Shown piece by piece: positions 3,511 to 14,830 of a stretch of DNA of 64,000 nucleotides (position 1 is its first letter; the number at the start of each line of letters is the position of its first letter). The notes below the pieces were generated by a model. It did not search any database. It had not been told where the DNA came from and saw only the letters and a list, made by a program, of their open reading frames with translations. This stretch comes from Candidatus Altimarinota bacterium (GTDB taxonomy: Bacteria; Patescibacteriota; Gracilibacteria; UBA4473). The position numbers were made by a program, and so were the translations under genes. Location of the stretch: assembly GCA_023143095.1 (NCBI GenBank), contig JAGLIF010000002.1, positions 1-64,000 of the forward strand, read 5' to 3'.

Positions 3511-5190
3511 ATGAAAAAGATTTATGTTCCAGGATCGAAATCTGTGTCAAATAGAGTTTTGGTATTGGCAGCATTGTCTTCTGAGTCAACGATTTTATAT
3601 AATTTACTGATTTCCAATGATATTATTTTTTTAAAAAATGCTTTGATCAAATTTGGTGTTATTTTTGAAGAACAAAAAAATGGGGGACTAAAAATAATAC
3701 CTCCTAAACAATTGAAAGGGAATAATTCGGACAATTTTATTGGTAATGGTGGAACTCCGGCTCGGTTTTTGGTGGCTCTTTCGACTATTTTAGAAGGAAC
3801 TTTTTCATTGAAAGGTGTTGAACGAATGTACGAGAGACCTTTTTTAGATTTATTTGAAGCAATAGGTTCTTTTGGTGTGGATATTGAGTATTTAGGACAA
3901 AAAGGATTTTTGCCAGCTAAATTTTCCAATAAAGGACTAGAAACAATGAATAGAAGTTCTTTAAAAATATCTGGAAAGGTTAGCTCGCAATTTATTTCAG
4001 GGCTTTTATTGGTAGCTCCAAAGTTTGAAAACGGTTTAGAAATAGAAGTGTCAGAGGCGATTCAGAGTTTACCGTATGTAAAAATGACAGTGGAAATTTT
4101 GAAAATATGGGGGGTATCTGTAGAAGTTTCACAGAATTATCAAAAATTTAAGATATTACCAGGATTGAAGTCTCCAAGAGAATTTTTGGTTCCAGCTGAT
4201 TCAAGTTCTGCGAGTTATCCGATAGCCTACAGCTTGCTTAAAAAAGAGAAAATTTCGATTGAAAATTTTGGAATAAAGACTTTTCAAGGGGATGAAAAGT
4301 TTTTGGAAGTAGCTGAAAAATTTGGAGCAAAAGTGGTTAGATTTGGGGACAAAGTTCAGATTCAACCGCCAGAAGTGTTAACTCCACTTGGAGAAATTGA
4401 TTTTTCAACCATGCCAGATGTGAGTATGACAGGTATGATTCTGGCTTCTTTTTCTAAAGGTTATTCGGAATTTTATGGACTTGAAAGTTTAAGGGTTAAA
4501 GAATGTGATAGGATTGAAGCTATGCGGCAAGGATTAGTGAAGTTAGGAGTTCGTATCGAGGTAAAAGATGATATTGTTAAGATATGGGGTGATGAAGCGG
4601 TTTTTAGAAAAGATGAGAAGATTCTTAATTCGTTTGATGATCATCGGATTGCAATGGTGTTTGGGATTGTTCGTTTAGTATTGAAAGCGTCTTTTCAGAT
4701 TACGGATCAGGAATGTGTGGCAAAATCTTGGCCAGAATTTTGGTTGGAATTATCTGATTGGAATAATGAGTTACGAAGTGTAAGTGCTATTATTCTAGAA
4801 AAAGTTCAAGATGGTGGCTTGCAGTATCTAATTGTGAAAAAACCACGAAAAGATTATGCGTGGCAGTTTCCACAAGGAGGAAAAGAGGAAGGGGAAATGG
4901 ATAAGAAAGCTGCCGAAAGAGAGTTGAAAGAAGAATGTGGAGAAGATTTAAATGTTAAATTTAAAGGAGAAAACTCAATAGGAGATTATAAATATTTGTT
5001 CCCGAAAGATTTTAAACGCCATAAAAAAGGGGTTTTTGGGGTTCATGTGAAATTTTTCCGAGCAGATTATTTGAACGGATTAGTAAAAGTAGATGGAGAA
5101 GAGATCATAGACCATGCGTGGGTGAAAAAAGAGAACTTAAAGGATTTTTTCGAGGTGGAATATTTAGAAAGAATACAGTTTTTTTTATAA
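3511..5190 (+). CDS. aroA: EPSP synthase fused to a C-terminal Nudix domain
   Basis: Residues 1 to about 415 are 3-phosphoshikimate 1-carboxyvinyltransferase, the sixth shikimate step. Visible hallmarks are PGSKSVSNR, NGGTPAR, SGKVSSQF, RVKECDRIEAMR and DDHRIAM, so the active site looks intact. From about residue 423 a Nudix hydrolase domain follows, with a complete Nudix box GX5EX7REUXEEXGU near residues 456-478 (GGKEEGE, then RELKEECGE). Usual AroA is about 430 residues; this protein has 559. The frame is continuous across the junction, with no internal stop or obvious alternative start. The Nudix part loosely recalls mitochondrial ribosomal protein L46. The substrate of the Nudix domain is unknown. 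Confidence 0.9.
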   Translation: MKKIYVPGSKSVSNRVLVLAALSSESTILYNLLISNDIIFLKNALIKFGVIFEEQKNGGLKIIPPKQLKGNNSDNFIGNGGTPARFLVALSTILEGTFSLKGVERMYERPFLDLFEAIGSFGVDIEYLGQKGFLPAKFSNKGLETMNRSSLKISGKVSSQFISGLLLVAPKFENGLEIEVSEAIQSLPYVKMTVEILKIWGVSVEVSQNYQKFKILPGLKSPREFLVPADSSSASYPIAYSLLKKEKISIENFGIKTFQGDEKFLEVAEKFGAKVVRFGDKVQIQPPEVLTPLGEIDFSTMPDVSMTGMILASFSKGYSEFYGLESLRVKECDRIEAMRQGLVKLGVRIEVKDDIVKIWGDEAVFRKDEKILNSFDDHRIAMVFGIVRLVLKASFQITDQECVAKSWPEFWLELSDWNNELRSVSAIILEKVQDGGLQYLIVKKPRKDYAWQFPQGGKEEGEMDKKAAERELKEECGEDLNVKFKGENSIGDYKYLFPKDFKRHKKGVFGVHVKFFRADYLNGLVKVDGEEIIDHAWVKKENLKDFFEVEYLERIQFFL

Positions 5191-6629: not shown

Positions 6630-8183
6630 ATGAAAAAAATTTTAGTTTTGTTTTTATTAGTTCCAGGATTTGTATTGGCTGAATTGGCATTAGAGCAACA
6701 GGAGAAATCGAAGGTTGAAATAATGGAAGAAACAGGTGAAATAGTAGAAAAAGTGTTTGAAGAGGAACAAATAGAACCAGCTATTACAGCGGAAGATCAA
6801 GGGAGTCTTGGAGAAAAATTTTTATTTGGAGGAGATACTTCAAAAATTATTTCTATTTCTAATTATGGACGCCCCCTTTTCTCTTGGGATTTTGGAGATG
6901 GTAGTCGTCCAAAGTTTGGGGAAACGATTTTACATACCTATGAAAATCCGGGGAAGTACACGGTTAAATTGAATGTAAAACAGGGACGGAAAAAAGAATC
7001 TATTACCAAAGAAGTTCTAGTTTACAATCAGAAGGGAGTGCTTGTTTCTGATAATGCAAAAAAATTCATGGAAATTCAGAAATTAGCGGAAGAGAAGGGG
7101 ATTTGGCTTAAAAAAATATTATATGAAGGAGAAAAAAAGGGTTTTTCTGTAGAAGAAGCATTTGTATCAAAATTCCAAGAAAATGCGGATTTTATACGAG
7201 ATTCTCGTTTTGTTATTTTTGATACTAAATCTATTTCGGGGTTACAAAGTTTTACTCAATTTTGGAAAAAAGTATCTCCAGAGAAAAAGTTTGATTTGAC
7301 TGAAAAGTTGTGGGTTAAACTTTCAGAAGAAAATTTAGCTAAAATGGCAAAACTTTCTCAGCCGATTTTTGAGGTGTTGCGACCAGGCTTTATTTTGTTA
7401 ACACGAAAAGAATCACTGGTGCCGATTTTTGAATCAGAGCAAAAAGAAGATGTGAGTAAAAAATTGGAAATGAGAGGAATTGAATATCGAATCATTGATA
7501 ACCGAAGTCGTACTTCGGGATTTTTGCCTCTTTCCAAATTAACAACCTATTTTGTAACAAGAGGAATTTCACAAAACATTATTTATCTGCTTCTATCGGT
7601 TCCTTTTTTGGCTTTTTTGATTGCTTTTTTGCGACAATTTGTGGGAGTTTCTACTTTTGGGGTTTTTGCACCAATTATGCTTTCTCTTAGTTTTTTGGTT
7701 TTGGGATTGAATTTTGGGTTAGTCGTTTTTCTGGTAGTGCTTTTGGTGAGTTATATTATCCGAACTATTTTTGAAAAGGTGGAACTTTTATATATTCCAA
7801 AAATTGCATTGCTTTTTAGTTTCTTGGCACTTTCTTTTTTTGGTATCTTGGGATTAGCGGTTTATTTTGATTCAAGTCTTAATCTTGGTTTAACTATTTT
7901 TCCTATGATGGTTATGTCTACTATTTCGGAAAAATTTTTAGCTTCCCAATCATCCAGTGGATTGAAAAATGCTATAATAGCGATTATTGAAACAGTAGTT
8001 GTTGCATTGTTGGCATATTTCTTTGTTGAGTGGGAATTTATAAAAAACAGTATTTTAGCTATGCCTGAGTGGATTTTGTTGCCGATGGTTGGAACGGTTT
8101 GGCTTGGTAAATTTACTGGGCTTCGAATTTCAGAATATTTCAAATTTAGGGCACTTTTACATGATGATGTACAGGAAGAATAA
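6630..8183 (+). CDS. PKD / inactive-transglutaminase-like protein with about seven TM helices
   Basis: I start it at the ATG of MKKILVLFLLVPGFVLAE, which reads as a signal peptide or signal anchor. A PKD-like domain spans about residues 66-120 (FSWDFGDGSRP, YENPGKYTVKLNV). A helical region to about residue 310 follows and then a block of about seven hydrophobic helices (residues 315-490). This layout matches membrane proteins annotated as inactive transglutaminase fused to seven TM helices, which travel with RimK-like ATP-grasp ligases. Here the next gene, 45 bases on, is exactly such a ligase. It is likely exported, with the PKD part outside. The biochemical role is unknown and the family call is from memory. 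Confidence 0.7.
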   Translation: MKKILVLFLLVPGFVLAELALEQQEKSKVEIMEETGEIVEKVFEEEQIEPAITAEDQGSLGEKFLFGGDTSKIISISNYGRPLFSWDFGDGSRPKFGETILHTYENPGKYTVKLNVKQGRKKESITKEVLVYNQKGVLVSDNAKKFMEIQKLAEEKGIWLKKILYEGEKKGFSVEEAFVSKFQENADFIRDSRFVIFDTKSISGLQSFTQFWKKVSPEKKFDLTEKLWVKLSEENLAKMAKLSQPIFEVLRPGFILLTRKESLVPIFESEQKEDVSKKLEMRGIEYRIIDNRSRTSGFLPLSKLTTYFVTRGISQNIIYLLLSVPFLAFLIAFLRQFVGVSTFGVFAPIMLSLSFLVLGLNFGLVVFLVVLLVSYIIRTIFEKVELLYIPKIALLFSFLALSFFGILGLAVYFDSSLNLGLTIFPMMVMSTISEKFLASQSSSGLKNAIIAIIETVVVALLAYFFVEWEFIKNSILAMPEWILLPMVGTVWLGKFTGLRISEYFKFRALLHDDVQEE

Positions 8184-8228
8184 TAGTTGAGATATGTGTG
8201 TTTCAGCTAAATAAACAACGAAATAATT

Positions 8229-10532
8229 ATGATTTTTTCAAAAAAAGTTTCAGGAATACTTGGTATGAATGCACGAAATTTGAATTATATTTATAAATAT
8301 AATTCATTGGAGCATAAACGATTTGCGGATGATAAAATTTTTACAAAACAGTTTCTTGAATCGAGAGGAATTGGTGTAGCAAAACTCTATCAGGTGGTAA
8401 AAGATTATAAACAATTAACTACGGCTTTTTTTAATTCATTACCCGATAGTTTTGTTTTAAAACCTAATCGTGGATTTGGTGGAGGAGGCATTTTAGTAAT
8501 TTCTAGAAAAGAAGGTGAGATGTGGATTACGGTTTCAGGTAAAAAGATTAATGAGGAGTCTTTATATCGTCAGTGTATTGAAATATTGGATGGGAAATAT
8601 TCTATTTCTGGAACAACCGATCAAGTAATTTTTGAAGAAAAGTTAGATCCACATCCCGATTTTCGAATCCTTACGGATGCTGGATTACCAGATGTTAGAG
8701 TGATTGTTTTCAATTTAGTACCAGTAATGGCTATGTTGCGTGTTCCAACACCAGAATCAGACGGGAAAGCGAATATGGAGCTAGGTGCAATTGGAATGGG
8801 GATTGATATGGGAAGCGGAAAGACGACAGGCGCAGCATTGAAATCAAAATTTATAAAACGGTTACCAAACGGAGAGATGGCAGCTGGTTTTCAAGTTCCT
8901 TTTTGGGATGAAGTACTATTGAGTGTTTCTAAAATACAACAATCTACGAATATTGGTTTTTTGGGAGTTGATTTAGTGATGACAAAAACGGGTATAAAAG
9001 TATTGGAAATAAATGCGCGTCCTGGATTAAAAATTCAAGTGGCTAATCGGACACCTCTTCGTGTAAGATTAGAAAAAGTATCAGATCTTAAAGTTCTAAC
9101 ACCAGAAGATGCGGTGGAAGTGGCAAGAACTTTATTTTCAGAGAAGCAGATTCTTGAAACGGAGTTTGCACAAAAGCCAATTTTAGGAATTTATGAAAAT
9201 GTGATTTTAAATAGGGATGAACCTAAAAGTTTGGTTGCACAGATAGATCTTTTGGCAGAAAATAATCAAATCTCTTACAAATATTATGACAAAAAAGAAA
9301 AATTTTTAGATATAATGATAGGAGAAAAAAGATTGAAGTTGCCAGTGGAAAAATCTATGAGAAAAGATATAGACTTGATTTTAGCAGGAAAGTTTTTAAC
9401 AGATTTTTATATTGATGTGAGTAAAAAATTTGAACAGAAAAATTTAGCAGAGATTTCTTCCTGTTCAGTAGATGAAAAAATGCTTAAAAATATTGATGCT
9501 AAAATTTGTGAATTGGATTCAAAAATAAAACTTTTATCCTATATTAATCCTCGAAATTTATCTGAACAGAAAGCTATTTTTTTGAATCATCCAGAGTTTT
9601 CTCCTCGCTTTTTTTATCGAGATTGTGATTTAGATTTCTCATTTTTTCGAAATGAATTAAAAAAAATACCAAAAGTGAATCATGAACTTTTTCCTTTATA
9701 TGAAGCTAAAATTGAAGAGATAAAGTGGAAATTGTTTCTTTTGGAATTTAGAGATTCTGTTGAATTTGGTGATTTTTCAAAAAAGATTTTTGGATCAGTT
9801 ACCAAGGCTATTTACAAGGATGCATTAGGGTTTTTACATAAAAATAAGTTAGTTTTAGATAATAGTGAGGAATTAGATACAAAGAGAGCAGTAGAAATAT
9901 TGGAGACTTTTTTGAATGAACATAGGTTATCACATTGGAAAATTAAAATTATGGAAGATAGTGTAGTGGATATACAAGTGACGAAAAAGGGGTTTATTTT
10001 GGTAAAAAAGAAGGCTAGTTTTAAAAAAAATAGACTGAAAGCTTTATTATCACATGAAATTGGAACTCATATTTTTCGTTTTGAAAATGGAAAACTTCAA
10101 CCATTACGAATTTTTGAACGAGGGACGGCTAATTATTTAAGGACAGAAGAGGGTTTAGCTGTTTGGAATCAGAATCAACTCAAAATTCCTTTGGGGGATA
10201 AGTTTTTGACTCCTGCTTATTTGGTGGTGGCGATTTATATGGCTGGTAAAATGAGTTTTTTGGATTTATTCCATTATTTGAAAAATACTTTTGAGATTTC
10301 AGATGATTTAGTTTGGAAATTGTGTGTGAAGGTGAAAAGAGGGCTGCAAAATACAGAGCTAAAAACAGCGTTTACCAAAGATTCTATTTATTTTTCTGGA
10401 AATCGCGATATTGAAAAATTTGTTAAAAAAGGAGGAATTATTTCAGATTTATATGTTGGAAAAATTGGTATAAAGGAGCTTCCTTTGGTGAAAAAAATAA
10501 AAGGTCTTCGTCCACCTAAGTTTTTACTTTAA
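8229..10532 (+). CDS. RimK-like ATP-grasp ligase fused to DUF1704 (MATCAP-like) metallopeptidase
   Basis: The 767-residue protein has two enzymatic halves. Residues 1 to about 300 are an ATP-grasp amino-acid ligase of the alpha-L-glutamate-ligase-like type: KPNRGFGGGGILVI nucleotide loop, FRILTDAGLPDVRVI, then VLEINARPGLKIQVAN, which carries the metal-binding Glu and Asn. From about residue 400 to the end it resembles DUF1704, the family of MATCAP tyrosine carboxypeptidases. It has the zinc motif HEIGTH (HExxxH, near residue 609) and the downstream EEGLAVWNQ segment. It follows the 7TM protein and is probably co-transcribed. A ligase that adds residues to a peptide end, joined to a peptidase that may remove them, is inferred; the substrate is unknown. 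Confidence 0.8.
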   Translation: MIFSKKVSGILGMNARNLNYIYKYNSLEHKRFADDKIFTKQFLESRGIGVAKLYQVVKDYKQLTTAFFNSLPDSFVLKPNRGFGGGGILVISRKEGEMWITVSGKKINEESLYRQCIEILDGKYSISGTTDQVIFEEKLDPHPDFRILTDAGLPDVRVIVFNLVPVMAMLRVPTPESDGKANMELGAIGMGIDMGSGKTTGAALKSKFIKRLPNGEMAAGFQVPFWDEVLLSVSKIQQSTNIGFLGVDLVMTKTGIKVLEINARPGLKIQVANRTPLRVRLEKVSDLKVLTPEDAVEVARTLFSEKQILETEFAQKPILGIYENVILNRDEPKSLVAQIDLLAENNQISYKYYDKKEKFLDIMIGEKRLKLPVEKSMRKDIDLILAGKFLTDFYIDVSKKFEQKNLAEISSCSVDEKMLKNIDAKICELDSKIKLLSYINPRNLSEQKAIFLNHPEFSPRFFYRDCDLDFSFFRNELKKIPKVNHELFPLYEAKIEEIKWKLFLLEFRDSVEFGDFSKKIFGSVTKAIYKDALGFLHKNKLVLDNSEELDTKRAVEILETFLNEHRLSHWKIKIMEDSVVDIQVTKKGFILVKKKASFKKNRLKALLSHEIGTHIFRFENGKLQPLRIFERGTANYLRTEEGLAVWNQNQLKIPLGDKFLTPAYLVVAIYMAGKMSFLDLFHYLKNTFEISDDLVWKLCVKVKRGLQNTELKTAFTKDSIYFSGNRDIEKFVKKGGIISDLYVGKIGIKELPLVKKIKGLRPPKFLL

Positions 10533-11843: not shown

Positions 11844-11880
11844 GGGGTTCCTGCCTTCGCAGGAATGAGGGTATTTTTTT
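11844..11880. terminator. R2 palindrome acting as bidirectional terminator
   Basis: A copy of repeat R2 (GTTCCTGCcttcGCAGGAAT, stem of 7-8 bp) followed by a T-run lies between the convergent PilB-like gene and argS. The hairpin and T-tract fit an intrinsic terminator. Confidence 0.65.
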
Positions 11881-13568
11881 TACATCTTCTCAGGAAGATC
11901 TATTCCTAGACAACTAAGACCAGATTCAAGTGTTTCTAAAACTTTATTTGCTAGAGCTAATCGTGCTTTTTTTAGTAAATCTGTTTTTGCCTTTAATATA
12001 GAATTTTCGGCATAAAAGCTAGACCAGCTTTGTGAGAGCTCCAAAAGATAGGTAATGATAAAAGTTGGATTTCTTTCGATGGCAGCACGCTCAAGTGTTT
12101 TTGGGAATTCAAGAATTTTAATGCCAAGAGGTTTTTCTGTGGTAGAGAGAGCCGATATAAAATTTGTTTCTTTAGGATTTATGATTTTACCAGATTTTTC
12201 CAAAATAGATTTGATTCTGACTCCTGCGTATTGTAGGTAGGGACCAGTGGCTCCTTGAAAATCAATAGATTTTTCTTTGTCAAAGGTAATACTTTTGTTA
12301 GGAGAAGTTTTGAGTAAATAAAATTTCCAAGCGGCATTTTGAATTTTTTCTGCGGTATCATAGATAGTTTGTTTTGGTAGATTAGGATTTTGTTTGAGAA
12401 TTTTTTGAGCGGCTATTTCATGTAATTCATTCATGAGCATGTCAGCATCAATAACATTTCCTTCTCTAGATTTCATTCGTCCATCGGGAAGATGAACAAG
12501 TCCATATCCTAAATGGAAAAGATGGTTAGTATCTAAAATACCAAGTCGGGATAAACATTCAAAAAGGACTTTAAAGTAGTAGTTCTGTTCATCAGCAACC
12601 ACCCAAATCATTTCATCAGGTTCAAAGTCTTTTTTCCGTATTTCAGATACTGCTAGATCATTGGTCAGATAAATAGAGGTGCCATCAGCTCGCAGGATTA
12701 CTTTTTGTCCTAGGTTTTTATCTTCAAAGTTAATCACAATCGTCCCATCTTTACGATGCTCAAAAACTTTCTTTTTAAGACCTTCTTCGGCAATTTTTTT
12801 TCCTTGTTTGTAGGTGTCAGATTCGTAGTAGCTTTTTTCAAATACAACGCCTTGTCGGTTATAAGTATCTTGATGTCCAGCAAGAGTCCAATTATTCATT
12901 TTTTGCCAGAGAGTGCGGATGGTTGGATCTTCATTTTCCCATGCCACCAGCATTTCTTGAACCTCGTCATTGAGTGAGGGATTTTTTTTCGATTCAGTTT
13001 CGAATTTTACATAATAATCGCCTACGAACTGGTCGCCTTTTTTTTGAGTGCTTTCTGGTGTTTCGCCATTTCCAAATTTTTGGTAAGCGAGCATTGATTT
13101 ACAGATATGAATTCCACGATCATTGATGATGTTTACTCGGTGTACATTGGCGCCGCATTTCTCTAGCGTATTGGAAAGAGCTATCCCGATGGCATGATTT
13201 CGCATGTGTCCTAAGTGGAGAGGTTTGTTCGTATTAGGACCTGAAAATTCAACCACGATTTCTTTGTTTTTTAGCAATTCGATTTGCAATGGGGTTGCAA
13301 AAACTTTTTCAAAAAAAACTTCCTCTTTGAAAAACAAATTGAGATAAGGACCAGCAATTTCCGTTTTTTCCAAAATATCACAGTTTTCAAGTACTTTTTG
13401 TAACTCTTGAGCTATTTGAACAGGTGATTGTTGTGATTTTTTTGTAAGACCAAAGAAATTCATTGCCAAATCTCCAGAATTGCCTTTGGGAACTGCTGAA
13501 AATTGGATTTTTCCCGCTTGATCGGCGTTCCAATTTTTGAGTAAGTAGTCGAGAATGATATTTTCCAT
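11880..13568 (-). CDS. argS: Arginine-tRNA ligase
   Basis: Class I synthetase that charges tRNA-Arg. I start at MENIILDYLLK (13568); a start 30 bases earlier would overlap the upstream gene's end. The N-terminal Add-1 domain is followed by the HIGH-type signature FSGPNTNKPLHLGHMRNH near residue 118. The KMSKS counterpart is GRMKSREGNVIDADML, and the C-terminal DALR-type anticodon domain ends the protein. The length (562 residues) is normal. It lies downstream of the argA-like pseudogene on the same strand and converges with the PilB-like gene. Confidence 0.95.
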   Translation of the reverse strand: MENIILDYLLKNWNADQAGKIQFSAVPKGNSGDLAMNFFGLTKKSQQSPVQIAQELQKVLENCDILEKTEIAGPYLNLFFKEEVFFEKVFATPLQIELLKNKEIVVEFSGPNTNKPLHLGHMRNHAIGIALSNTLEKCGANVHRVNIINDRGIHICKSMLAYQKFGNGETPESTQKKGDQFVGDYYVKFETESKKNPSLNDEVQEMLVAWENEDPTIRTLWQKMNNWTLAGHQDTYNRQGVVFEKSYYESDTYKQGKKIAEEGLKKKVFEHRKDGTIVINFEDKNLGQKVILRADGTSIYLTNDLAVSEIRKKDFEPDEMIWVVADEQNYYFKVLFECLSRLGILDTNHLFHLGYGLVHLPDGRMKSREGNVIDADMLMNELHEIAAQKILKQNPNLPKQTIYDTAEKIQNAAWKFYLLKTSPNKSITFDKEKSIDFQGATGPYLQYAGVRIKSILEKSGKIINPKETNFISALSTTEKPLGIKILEFPKTLERAAIERNPTFIITYLLELSQSWSSFYAENSILKAKTDLLKKARLALANKVLETLESGLSCLGIDLPEKM

Positions 13569-13588
13569 CAGAAATATTGTAAATATTT

Positions 13589-14830
13589 TTATTCCCATTC
13601 AAAATAGATTCTTTCCTCTTTTTTTCTTTCCTTAGGAAACCAAGATGGAAATGGCTTTTGTTTTCCATTTTTAGAAAAAAAGGAAAAGGCTTTTTTATTT
13701 TCAGATTTTATGATCGCACAGCCTTTGAGAATACCTTCTTCTTTTCTTTTTAATTCGAATTGTTCGAATATTTTTTTCCCGAGTCCCTTATTGTGAAGAA
13801 AGCATGGAACTGCAAAAGCACCAAGTTCGTAAATTTCAGAATTAGAAGCATGTTTTTTGATTTCACAGGTACCTTTGATGACTCTGTCTTGCAAGAGAAT
13901 GATCCAATTTTCAATGTTTTGAAGAAGTTCATCTTTCGTTCTTGGTAAAATAAGCGGGTTGAGAGAGAGAAGTGTTTGCAATTGGGTTAGGAGAAGGTTG
14001 TCCTTCTTTAGAGTAACAAACTCTTCAGGGTTTTTCAATTTAGAAATCATAGTGGCTCTTTCAGGAATTCCGGTAGGAATAAAGGAATCTCTTACTATGT
14101 CTCCTGGATAATTCCAAGAAACGAGATGAACGGGAATACCTGCTTGTGCAATTGTTTTTGCAATTTCTATTTTTGGACACATTCCATCTTTGTACTTTTG
14201 GGAATCTATACTTTCAGGCTCTATTTCGGGAATGGTTGTTATTTTATCATCTGCTAAAATACCATTGGTTTTTCCAATGAAAAATACTTTAGATACATTA
14301 TCAACGCTCAAAGCTATAGTCCCAGCAATATTATCGGCATTGATATTGGTGTATTTCCCTGTTTTATTATCTATGCCTATATTTCCTGCAATTAGGATGT
14401 TGGTGTCTTTTTGAAGTAATGGATCAATGTCGGTTATGTCAGCTGTGGAATTATTTGTATCTCTTTGATCACTTTTAAATCTTTTAGGAGAAATAATGAC
14501 AGGAGTATATTCAGCAAGAATCAATGCTACTTTTTCAGAAAGTTTAGCACAAACGGCCTGAATTTCAGGCATTTTTTTTGGTGGGGTAATCCTTTGTCCA
14601 TCTCTAACTTCGTTTCCAACTATTTTGGAGGTTTGTGGTCATGAACCATGAACTAAAATAACATTTATTTTATGTTTCACTAAAAATATTATGGATTGGA
14701 TAAATCTATCCAATTTTTCTTCTTTTTCGAAGAGTTCTCCTCCAAATTTAATCACAAAAGTTTCTCCGTCTCTGACTTCAACATATTGTGCGATAAGCGA
14801 TTCTGGTATTTCTTTAAATAAGTTTTCCAT
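13589..14830 (-). pseudogene. argA: N-acetylglutamate synthase/kinase-like (argA type) with an in-frame TGA
   Basis: Two consecutive reading frames in the same phase form one amino-acid-kinase plus GNAT protein of the ArgA type. The first part starts at MENLFKEIPESL (14830) and reads VIKFGGELF...VILVHGS, then TGA, then PQTSKIVGNEVRDGQRI and onward to the kinase-domain residues (LIAGNIGIDNKTGKY, FIGKTNGILADD). A C-terminal acetyltransferase part (YELGAFAVPCFLHNKGLGKKIFEQFEL) completes it. The TGA (14639-14641) falls inside the nucleotide loop, HGGGPQ in kinases and YGARPQ in E. coli ArgA, at a codon one substitution from Gly GGA or Arg CGA. The rest of the frame is open, so the stop is recent, an error, or read through. 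The downstream ATG gives a 327-residue fragment lacking the loop. Confidence 0.75.

Follow-up and report, generated by a model that had tools for sequence, protein, structure and literature searches.

The DNA analysed here, called the window, comprises 64,000 nucleotides (nt; positions 1-64,000 of contig JAGLIF010000002.1, from a 1.2 Mb genome of Candidatus Altimarinota bacterium), and its subject is a pair of genes. Gene 1 encodes a seven-transmembrane (7TM) protein (P0001), and gene 2, starting after a gap of 45 nt, encodes a single chain (P0002) that joins an RloC-like ATP-grasp ligase, a degenerate retropepsin and a metallopeptidase of the MATCAP type. We consider it somewhat probable that the pair belongs to the rlo/rim polyglutamate systems as a variant whose eraser has been exchanged: the ligase would extend a glutamate (Glu) tail on the 7TM protein, and MATCAP would shorten it. 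We know with confidence the architecture, the inactivation of the retropepsin, its association with MATCAP and the conservation of the Glu tail. The strongest clue to function is the C-terminus of the 7TM protein, which ends in Glu in 45/45 loci with a dead or altered retropepsin, and in Glu-Glu (EE) in 42/45, compared with 6/65 and 0/65, respectively, in loci with an intact retropepsin.

Domain plan and spread of the ligase-MATCAP fusion

The two open reading frames (ORFs) lie where the first-pass annotation of this DNA had placed them, and contain the following features:

6630..8183, + strand: gene 1, the 7TM membrane protein gene (ORF, Pfam/NCBIfam, AlphaFold2, hhalign)
6879..7019, + strand: PKD domain, residues 84-130 by Pfam (PF18911/PF00801; Foldseek match to collagenase PKD domains)
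7029..7499, + strand: alpha/beta ectodomain of alternating strands and helices, ~residues 134-290 (AlphaFold2 secondary structure; Foldseek matches weak)
7569..8156, + strand: 7TM_transglut domain, residues 314-509 (PF14402 E=1.3e-29; hhalign to RloB 99.7%)
8157..8180, + strand: C-terminal tail ...DDVQEE, predicted to be cytosolic, with Glu-Glu codons at 8175-8180, the proposed acceptor
8229..10532, + strand: gene 2, the fusion of ligase, dead retropepsin and MATCAP (one open frame)
8244..9152, + strand: RloC-like ATP-grasp ligase domain, residues 6-308 (TIGR02291 E=1e-72, PF14397 E=1.7e-55; Foldseek to RimK)
9126..9446, + strand: degenerate retropepsin of RimB/RloA type, ~residues 300-406, DTG changed to DLL (hhalign 99.8%, E=2.9e-30)
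9495..10523, + strand: MATCAP/DUF1704 metallopeptidase domain, residues 423-765 (PF08014, TIGR02421; best Foldseek match human MATCAP)
10053..10070, + strand: zinc motif HEIGTH (H609, E610, H614), invariant in 58 homologues
10149-10151, + strand: E641 of TEEGLA, downstream of HEIGTH, invariant in 58 homologues

P0001 has the signal peptide, PKD domain (PF18911 E=1.2e-10) and 7TM region (PF14402, above the Pfam cut-off) expected from the first reading, and between the latter two an alpha/beta ectodomain. Its 7TM domain is of the RloB type, and the alignment with RloB of Legionella and Aeromonas (hhalign 99.7%, 199 columns) is confined to this part. The label 'inactive transglutaminase' had to be dropped: the transglutaminase domain PF14400 matched 0/58 P0001 homologues and both true RloB proteins tested, and beyond the PKD domain Foldseek returned only weak matches to the ectodomain. 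The positive-inside charges of the loops suggest that the C-terminal tail of P0001 lies in the cytosol, which is the compartment of the ligase fusion, P0002 having no signal peptide.

The ligase half of P0002, described at first as RimK-like, is an ATP-grasp protein (PF14397 E=1.7e-55, over the cut-off), yet it falls outside the RimK family (TIGR00768, 38 bits versus a cut-off of 143) and is RloC-like instead (TIGR02291 E=1e-72, albeit with 245 bits versus a cut-off of 314). For the C-terminal half, the expectation of a DUF1704-type metallopeptidase was confirmed by PF08014 (E=1.4e-40, 142 bits versus a curated cut-off of 27), by similarity to the QEGLA family TIGR02421 (E=2.6e-46, 158.6 bits versus a cut-off of 338.65) and by the motifs HEIGTH and TEEGLA, i.e. 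HExxxH plus the downstream Glu ligand. Both enzymes look active, a prediction made because H609, E610, H614 and E641 of the MATCAP domain and D248, E260 and N262 of the ligase, the latter three of which we take to be metal-binding by analogy with RimK, are invariant among 58 homologues. The structure prediction of P0002 had a mean predicted local distance difference test (pLDDT) score of 90 and a predicted template modelling (pTM) score of 0.53, so that the domain orientation is unreliable. In Foldseek searches with this model, human MATCAP ranked first and RimK was among the best ATP-grasp matches; the top 50 matches of the whole model were solely MATCAP and ATP-grasp proteins, which has no bearing either way on a retropepsin fold.

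The region between the two enzymes was recognized only through homologues with longer, intact copies, and its homology to PF05618 is therefore indirect. What follows the RloC-like ligase in other Patescibacteria is a longer domain bearing the pattern AKIDTGA...RP...DR...IIGRRDL...FLVD. These intact ligase-fused domains match PF05618 in 37/37 cases, and also match the structures 9g58/9g59 (E=2.8e-10), whose entry title, 'Putative ATP-dependent zinc protease', is also what Pfam calls the family of the RloA retropepsins. These intact retropepsins can be aligned with the degenerate stretch in the MATCAP fusions (hhalign 99.8%, E=2.9e-30), so that P0002 consists of a ligase, a dead retropepsin and a MATCAP domain. 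The catalytic D-T/S-G is replaced by DLL in the window protein. RloA residues R114 and R137 contact polyglutamate; the residue aligned with R114 is kept in 65/69 intact rows and that aligned with R137 in 55/69 (9 with a gap there), and both are mostly lost in the dead rows, where the shortening makes the alignment uncertain. In a 380-genome survey PF05618 itself matched nothing in the window genome, nor in any of the genomes with the fusion. Ligase-retropepsin fusions of 854-921 residues, with ~400 extra C-terminal residues, occur at two loci (L130 and L169).

The joining of ligase and peptidase in one chain, already proposed by the first-pass annotation, is widespread. P0002 had a match in 52/60 relatives, mostly as a full-length fused frame, and a single-frame fusion was present in 79/80 named contigs, these being the best 80 from a scan of one genome per species across 84,980 prokaryotic species. 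We thus reject an assembly join, which had been raised as a possible flaw together with a lack of DUF1704 similarity. Nearly all named fusion contigs are labelled as Gracilibacteria, Peregrinibacteria, Peribacteria, Magasanikbacteria or similar Patescibacteria, or plainly as 'bacterium'; two records labelled otherwise (Nitrospirota, Kiritimatiellales) are probably mis-binned. The window's family is ~43% identical to Magasanikbacteria-type loci, compared with 35-39% to most of its own class (L172, L186, L260-L268), which suggests horizontal transfer of the fusion. A literature search found no description of the ligase-MATCAP fusion, an earlier mention being possible in the work of Iyer et al. 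2009 on amidoligases, which is said to cover related gene clusters. Overall, the architecture is real and widespread, and it is apparently undescribed.

The C-terminal Glu tail and the loss of the retropepsin

The two most telling features, the degenerate retropepsin and the Glu conserved at the end of the 7TM protein, had escaped the first reading. The survey searched 380 Patescibacterial genomes with four families and covered 121 neighbourhoods. Most other Patescibacteria have a ligase with its retropepsin intact and without a MATCAP beside it. The D[TS]G motif was intact in 51/51 loci without MATCAP and kept in 16/16 with MATCAP near but not adjacent, while in the MATCAP fusions the site was eroded or altered in 44/44 (D[TS]G lost in 40, and followed in 4 by a charged residue instead of Ala). 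Where MATCAP is adjacent, D[TS]G was lost in 7/10, namely in f148, in two split fusions and in the four rows of f59, whose D has become N, and was intact in f41, f42 and f43. The f59 change, found at all four loci of that family (L219, L220, L222 and L223), is a natural D-to-N replacement of the retropepsin catalytic Asp; D48N was used as the catalytically inactive control in the RloA work (PMC12239564).

The tree of the ligase domain divides the retropepsin losses among three lineages or more: A, which comprises the Gracilibacteria class with f63 and f82; B, f59/f148, with MATCAP adjacent and D changed to N; and C, f124/f143, with MATCAP fused, which sits on a starred branch surrounded by intact rows. 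MATCAP fusions with an eroded DTG thus occupy two separately nested lineages, the third having an adjacent, unfused MATCAP. The MATCAP tree, in which several branches are long, places neither B nor C inside A.

The association of the tail with the state of the retropepsin gave a Fisher p of ~2e-23 on an earlier 42/64 locus set, a value that ignores relatedness. Among the named fusion loci the 7TM protein ends in Glu in 72/72 and in EE in 67/72; the background frequencies are 6.7% for a C-terminal Glu and 0.7% for EE, and among other proteins of the same loci they are 6.8% and 0.9%, respectively. Conservation is restricted to the very end, with a column entropy of 0 at position -1, ~0.4-0.5 at -2 and 2.7-3.6 at -3 to -6, and residues -3 to -8 vary. 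Lineage B tails end in EEEE, EEEE, EEE, EE and EE, and those of lineage C in NE and EE. The link between the fusion and the 7TM gene, for which a survey of genomes had been proposed at the outset, was borne out: the 7TM gene lies immediately upstream in most named loci, and where it is unlinked (on another contig or >70 kb away) it keeps the matching tail, with EE in 11/12.

The f78 locus (L163), counted as altered in the tail tally, combines the retropepsin motif DTGE and the 7TM tail EEEEEEEREEE with a MATCAP gene on the opposite strand, at a distance of 1.9 kb, and is a possible intermediate. Other ATP-grasp proteins occur near the RloC-like ligase in up to 26 families (L123-L242), mostly those with an intact retropepsin, in a cluster defined by loose linkage; the neighbouring protein that was checked (L153:4893-5810) is RimK-like.

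Comparison with described systems

The closest described system is rloABC of Pseudomonas aeruginosa, which serves osmotic (hypo-osmotic) stress tolerance and consists of a secreted retropepsin (RloA), a protein that joins an inactive transglutaminase to a 7TM region (RloB) and an ATP-grasp protein (RloC; PMC12239564). Deleting rloB or rloC compensates for the absence of the three RloA proteases; RloA cuts runs of at least 8 Glu, and encoded substrates were sought in the P. aeruginosa proteome without success (PMC12239564). Shared with the window system are the gene neighbourhood logic, a 7TM domain homologous to that of RloB, an RloC-like ligase (TIGR02291) and, as a relic, a retropepsin of RloA/RimB type. 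The window system differs in that its 7TM protein has PKD and alpha/beta ectodomains instead of a transglutaminase domain, its retropepsin is dead, ligase-fused and devoid of a signal peptide whereas RloA is secreted and has DTG, and it adds a MATCAP peptidase and a C-terminal Glu tail on the 7TM protein.

The rimBK/rimABK systems, which polyglutamylate ribosomal protein S6 (PMC4741518, PMC11957791, PMC10092738), likewise combine a glutamate-ligase fold with a cytosolic retropepsin-type eraser; RimK attaches Glu at the C-terminus of a protein (PMC10092738), an extension that is predicted for the window system too, and can make free poly-alpha-Glu (PMC12239564). In the window, by contrast, the ligase is RloC-like rather than of the RimK family, a membrane partner is present and a metallopeptidase replaces the eraser. 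We reject S6 as the substrate, since its tail in the window genome ends in SSEGI and not in Glu. Loci of other Patescibacteria (L345-L349) bring together, within ~5 kb, genes for a ligase resembling RimK, a retropepsin resembling RimB (DTGA/DSGA) and a MATCAP-like protein, and have no 7TM gene; several of their MATCAP-like proteins are without HExxxH.

The MATCAP domain and its zinc motif are shared with the tubulin carboxypeptidases MATCAP/TMCP1-2 (PMC10499314; PDB 7z5g), from which the window protein differs in being bacterial and ligase-fused, with the tail of a bacterial membrane protein as its predicted substrate. TMCP/MATCAP enzymes remove C-terminal Glu and shorten polyglutamate (PMC10499314), and this is a more relevant precedent than the tubulin detyrosination invoked in the first-pass annotation. 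The QEGLA family TIGR02421 (flavohemoglobin expression-modulating) belongs to the same DUF1704 superfamily and differs in architecture, the window protein scoring below its cut-off. The earlier idea of a writer/eraser pair with a membrane partner is supported, including the 7TM link, but not as a system without known kin, being a variant of rloABC and rimBK.

Two further genes of the window have composite products. One (3511-5190) encodes an EPSP synthase (aroA) with a C-terminal NUDIX domain in one 559-residue frame; the other (13589-14572), overlapping argS (11880-13598), encodes an amino-acid-kinase domain with weak GNAT similarity, resembling N-acetylglutamate synthase.

A proposed polyglutamylation switch and its alternatives

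We infer that glutamate is the amino acid added and the 7TM tail its acceptor, and likewise the direction of the two activities and the physiological role, as follows. The cytosolic RloC-like ATP-grasp domain would extend the C-terminal Glu-Glu of its 7TM partner with glutamates, the fused MATCAP domain, acting as a carboxypeptidase, would trim the added glutamates back, and of the ancestral eraser, a ligase-fused retropepsin, no more than an inactive spacer would be left. How active the 7TM/PKD membrane protein is would then depend on how long its Glu tail is, probably, by analogy with rloABC, under envelope or osmotic stress. A carboxypeptidase working Glu by Glu could use the encoded EE as primer and reset point, so that a Glu tail would be expected to appear with the exchange of the eraser; retropepsins cut long runs and would need no encoded terminal Glu. 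We put forward the full scheme more tentatively, at slightly less than even chances: one chain that, at the cytosolic C-terminal end of a membrane sensor, acts both as Glu-tail ligase and as deglutamylating carboxypeptidase, EE serving as its primer and reset point, and an eraser swapped repeatedly from retropepsin to MATCAP, each time together with a Glu tail on the substrate.

Several observations weigh against this interpretation. The middle region of P0002 taken alone (~residues 300-406) had no retropepsin match in the Pfam scan. Because three families (f41, f42 and f43) have an adjacent MATCAP, an intact DTGA and a 7TM protein without a Glu tail, the tail tracks retropepsin loss rather than the presence of MATCAP. 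All informative pairs point in the same direction, but only about three transitions are available, and three independent pairs are too few for significance in a sign test. The tail rule has two exceptions, G026, which ends in DDEEV, and G049, a broken gene ending in EQDS. In intact-retropepsin systems the 7TM protein lacks the Glu tail, so the acceptor there may differ, and the primer idea leaves unexplained both the target of those systems and the families with both enzymes. The amino acid and the acceptor of RloC are unproven in any organism. Finally, RloA of P. aeruginosa is secreted (PMC12239564), and its substrate is hence not a cytosolic tail.

The last point bears on the best surviving alternative, which we regard as unlikely: the ligase would make free polyglutamate, the 7TM protein would carry or export it, MATCAP would limit its length and EE would merely dock the fused enzyme. 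The synthesis of free poly-alpha-Glu by RimK and the secretion of RloA (PMC12239564) make a membrane-crossing product plausible, but in Patescibacteria either eraser shares a chain with the ligase or is encoded next to it, and this ligase lacks a signal peptide, which makes trimming in the cytosol probable; moreover, a near-absolute Glu at the very last position fits the end of an enzyme substrate better than a docking site. Somewhat less likely still is that MATCAP or the ligase recognizes its partner by the Glu tail, the main modified substrate being another protein. Other acceptors may indeed occur, given the Patescibacteria with RimK-RimB-MATCAP clusters and no 7TM gene in the locus, and the 7TM tail of intact-retropepsin systems has no EE; on the other side stand the S6 terminus, S6 being the RimK substrate elsewhere, and the 7TM gene as the conserved partner.

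It seems improbable that the MATCAP half acts on something unrelated, as a detyrosinase-like or general peptidase, with the fusion providing co-expression only. Specificity is unreadable from sequence and human TMCP1/MATCAP is mainly a detyrosinase (PMC10499314), but this would leave aside the repeated exchange, in separate lineages, with a retropepsin of the polyglutamate-cleaving type and the matched Glu tail. An origin of EE from GAA GAA as ribosome-binding site of the ligase gene, or from acidic C-termini in general, is suggested by the 7TM stop codon often lying close to the ligase start, but we reject it as very improbable, since Glu is present in 7/7 and 17/17 loci with 7TM-ligase gaps of at least 25 nt, EE is found in 0/56 intact loci with short gaps and in 0.9% of other proteins of the same loci, and the unlinked 7TM genes, in our view, refute it.

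The switch proposed above, extension of the 7TM tail by the ligase and its trimming by MATCAP, gives the tail correlation its wider interest, in that it names a concrete acceptor candidate, the C-terminus of the 7TM partner, for RloC-type ligases, the acceptor of which is unknown. If true, a membrane protein of bacteria would be switched by reversible polyglutamylation of its C-terminus, much as tubulin is modified in the TTLL/TMCP cycle, and the fusion would clearly exemplify an unrelated enzyme taking the place of another whose remnants persist in the same polypeptide. This switch would sit in the Patescibacteria, tiny bacteria whose biology is largely unknown.

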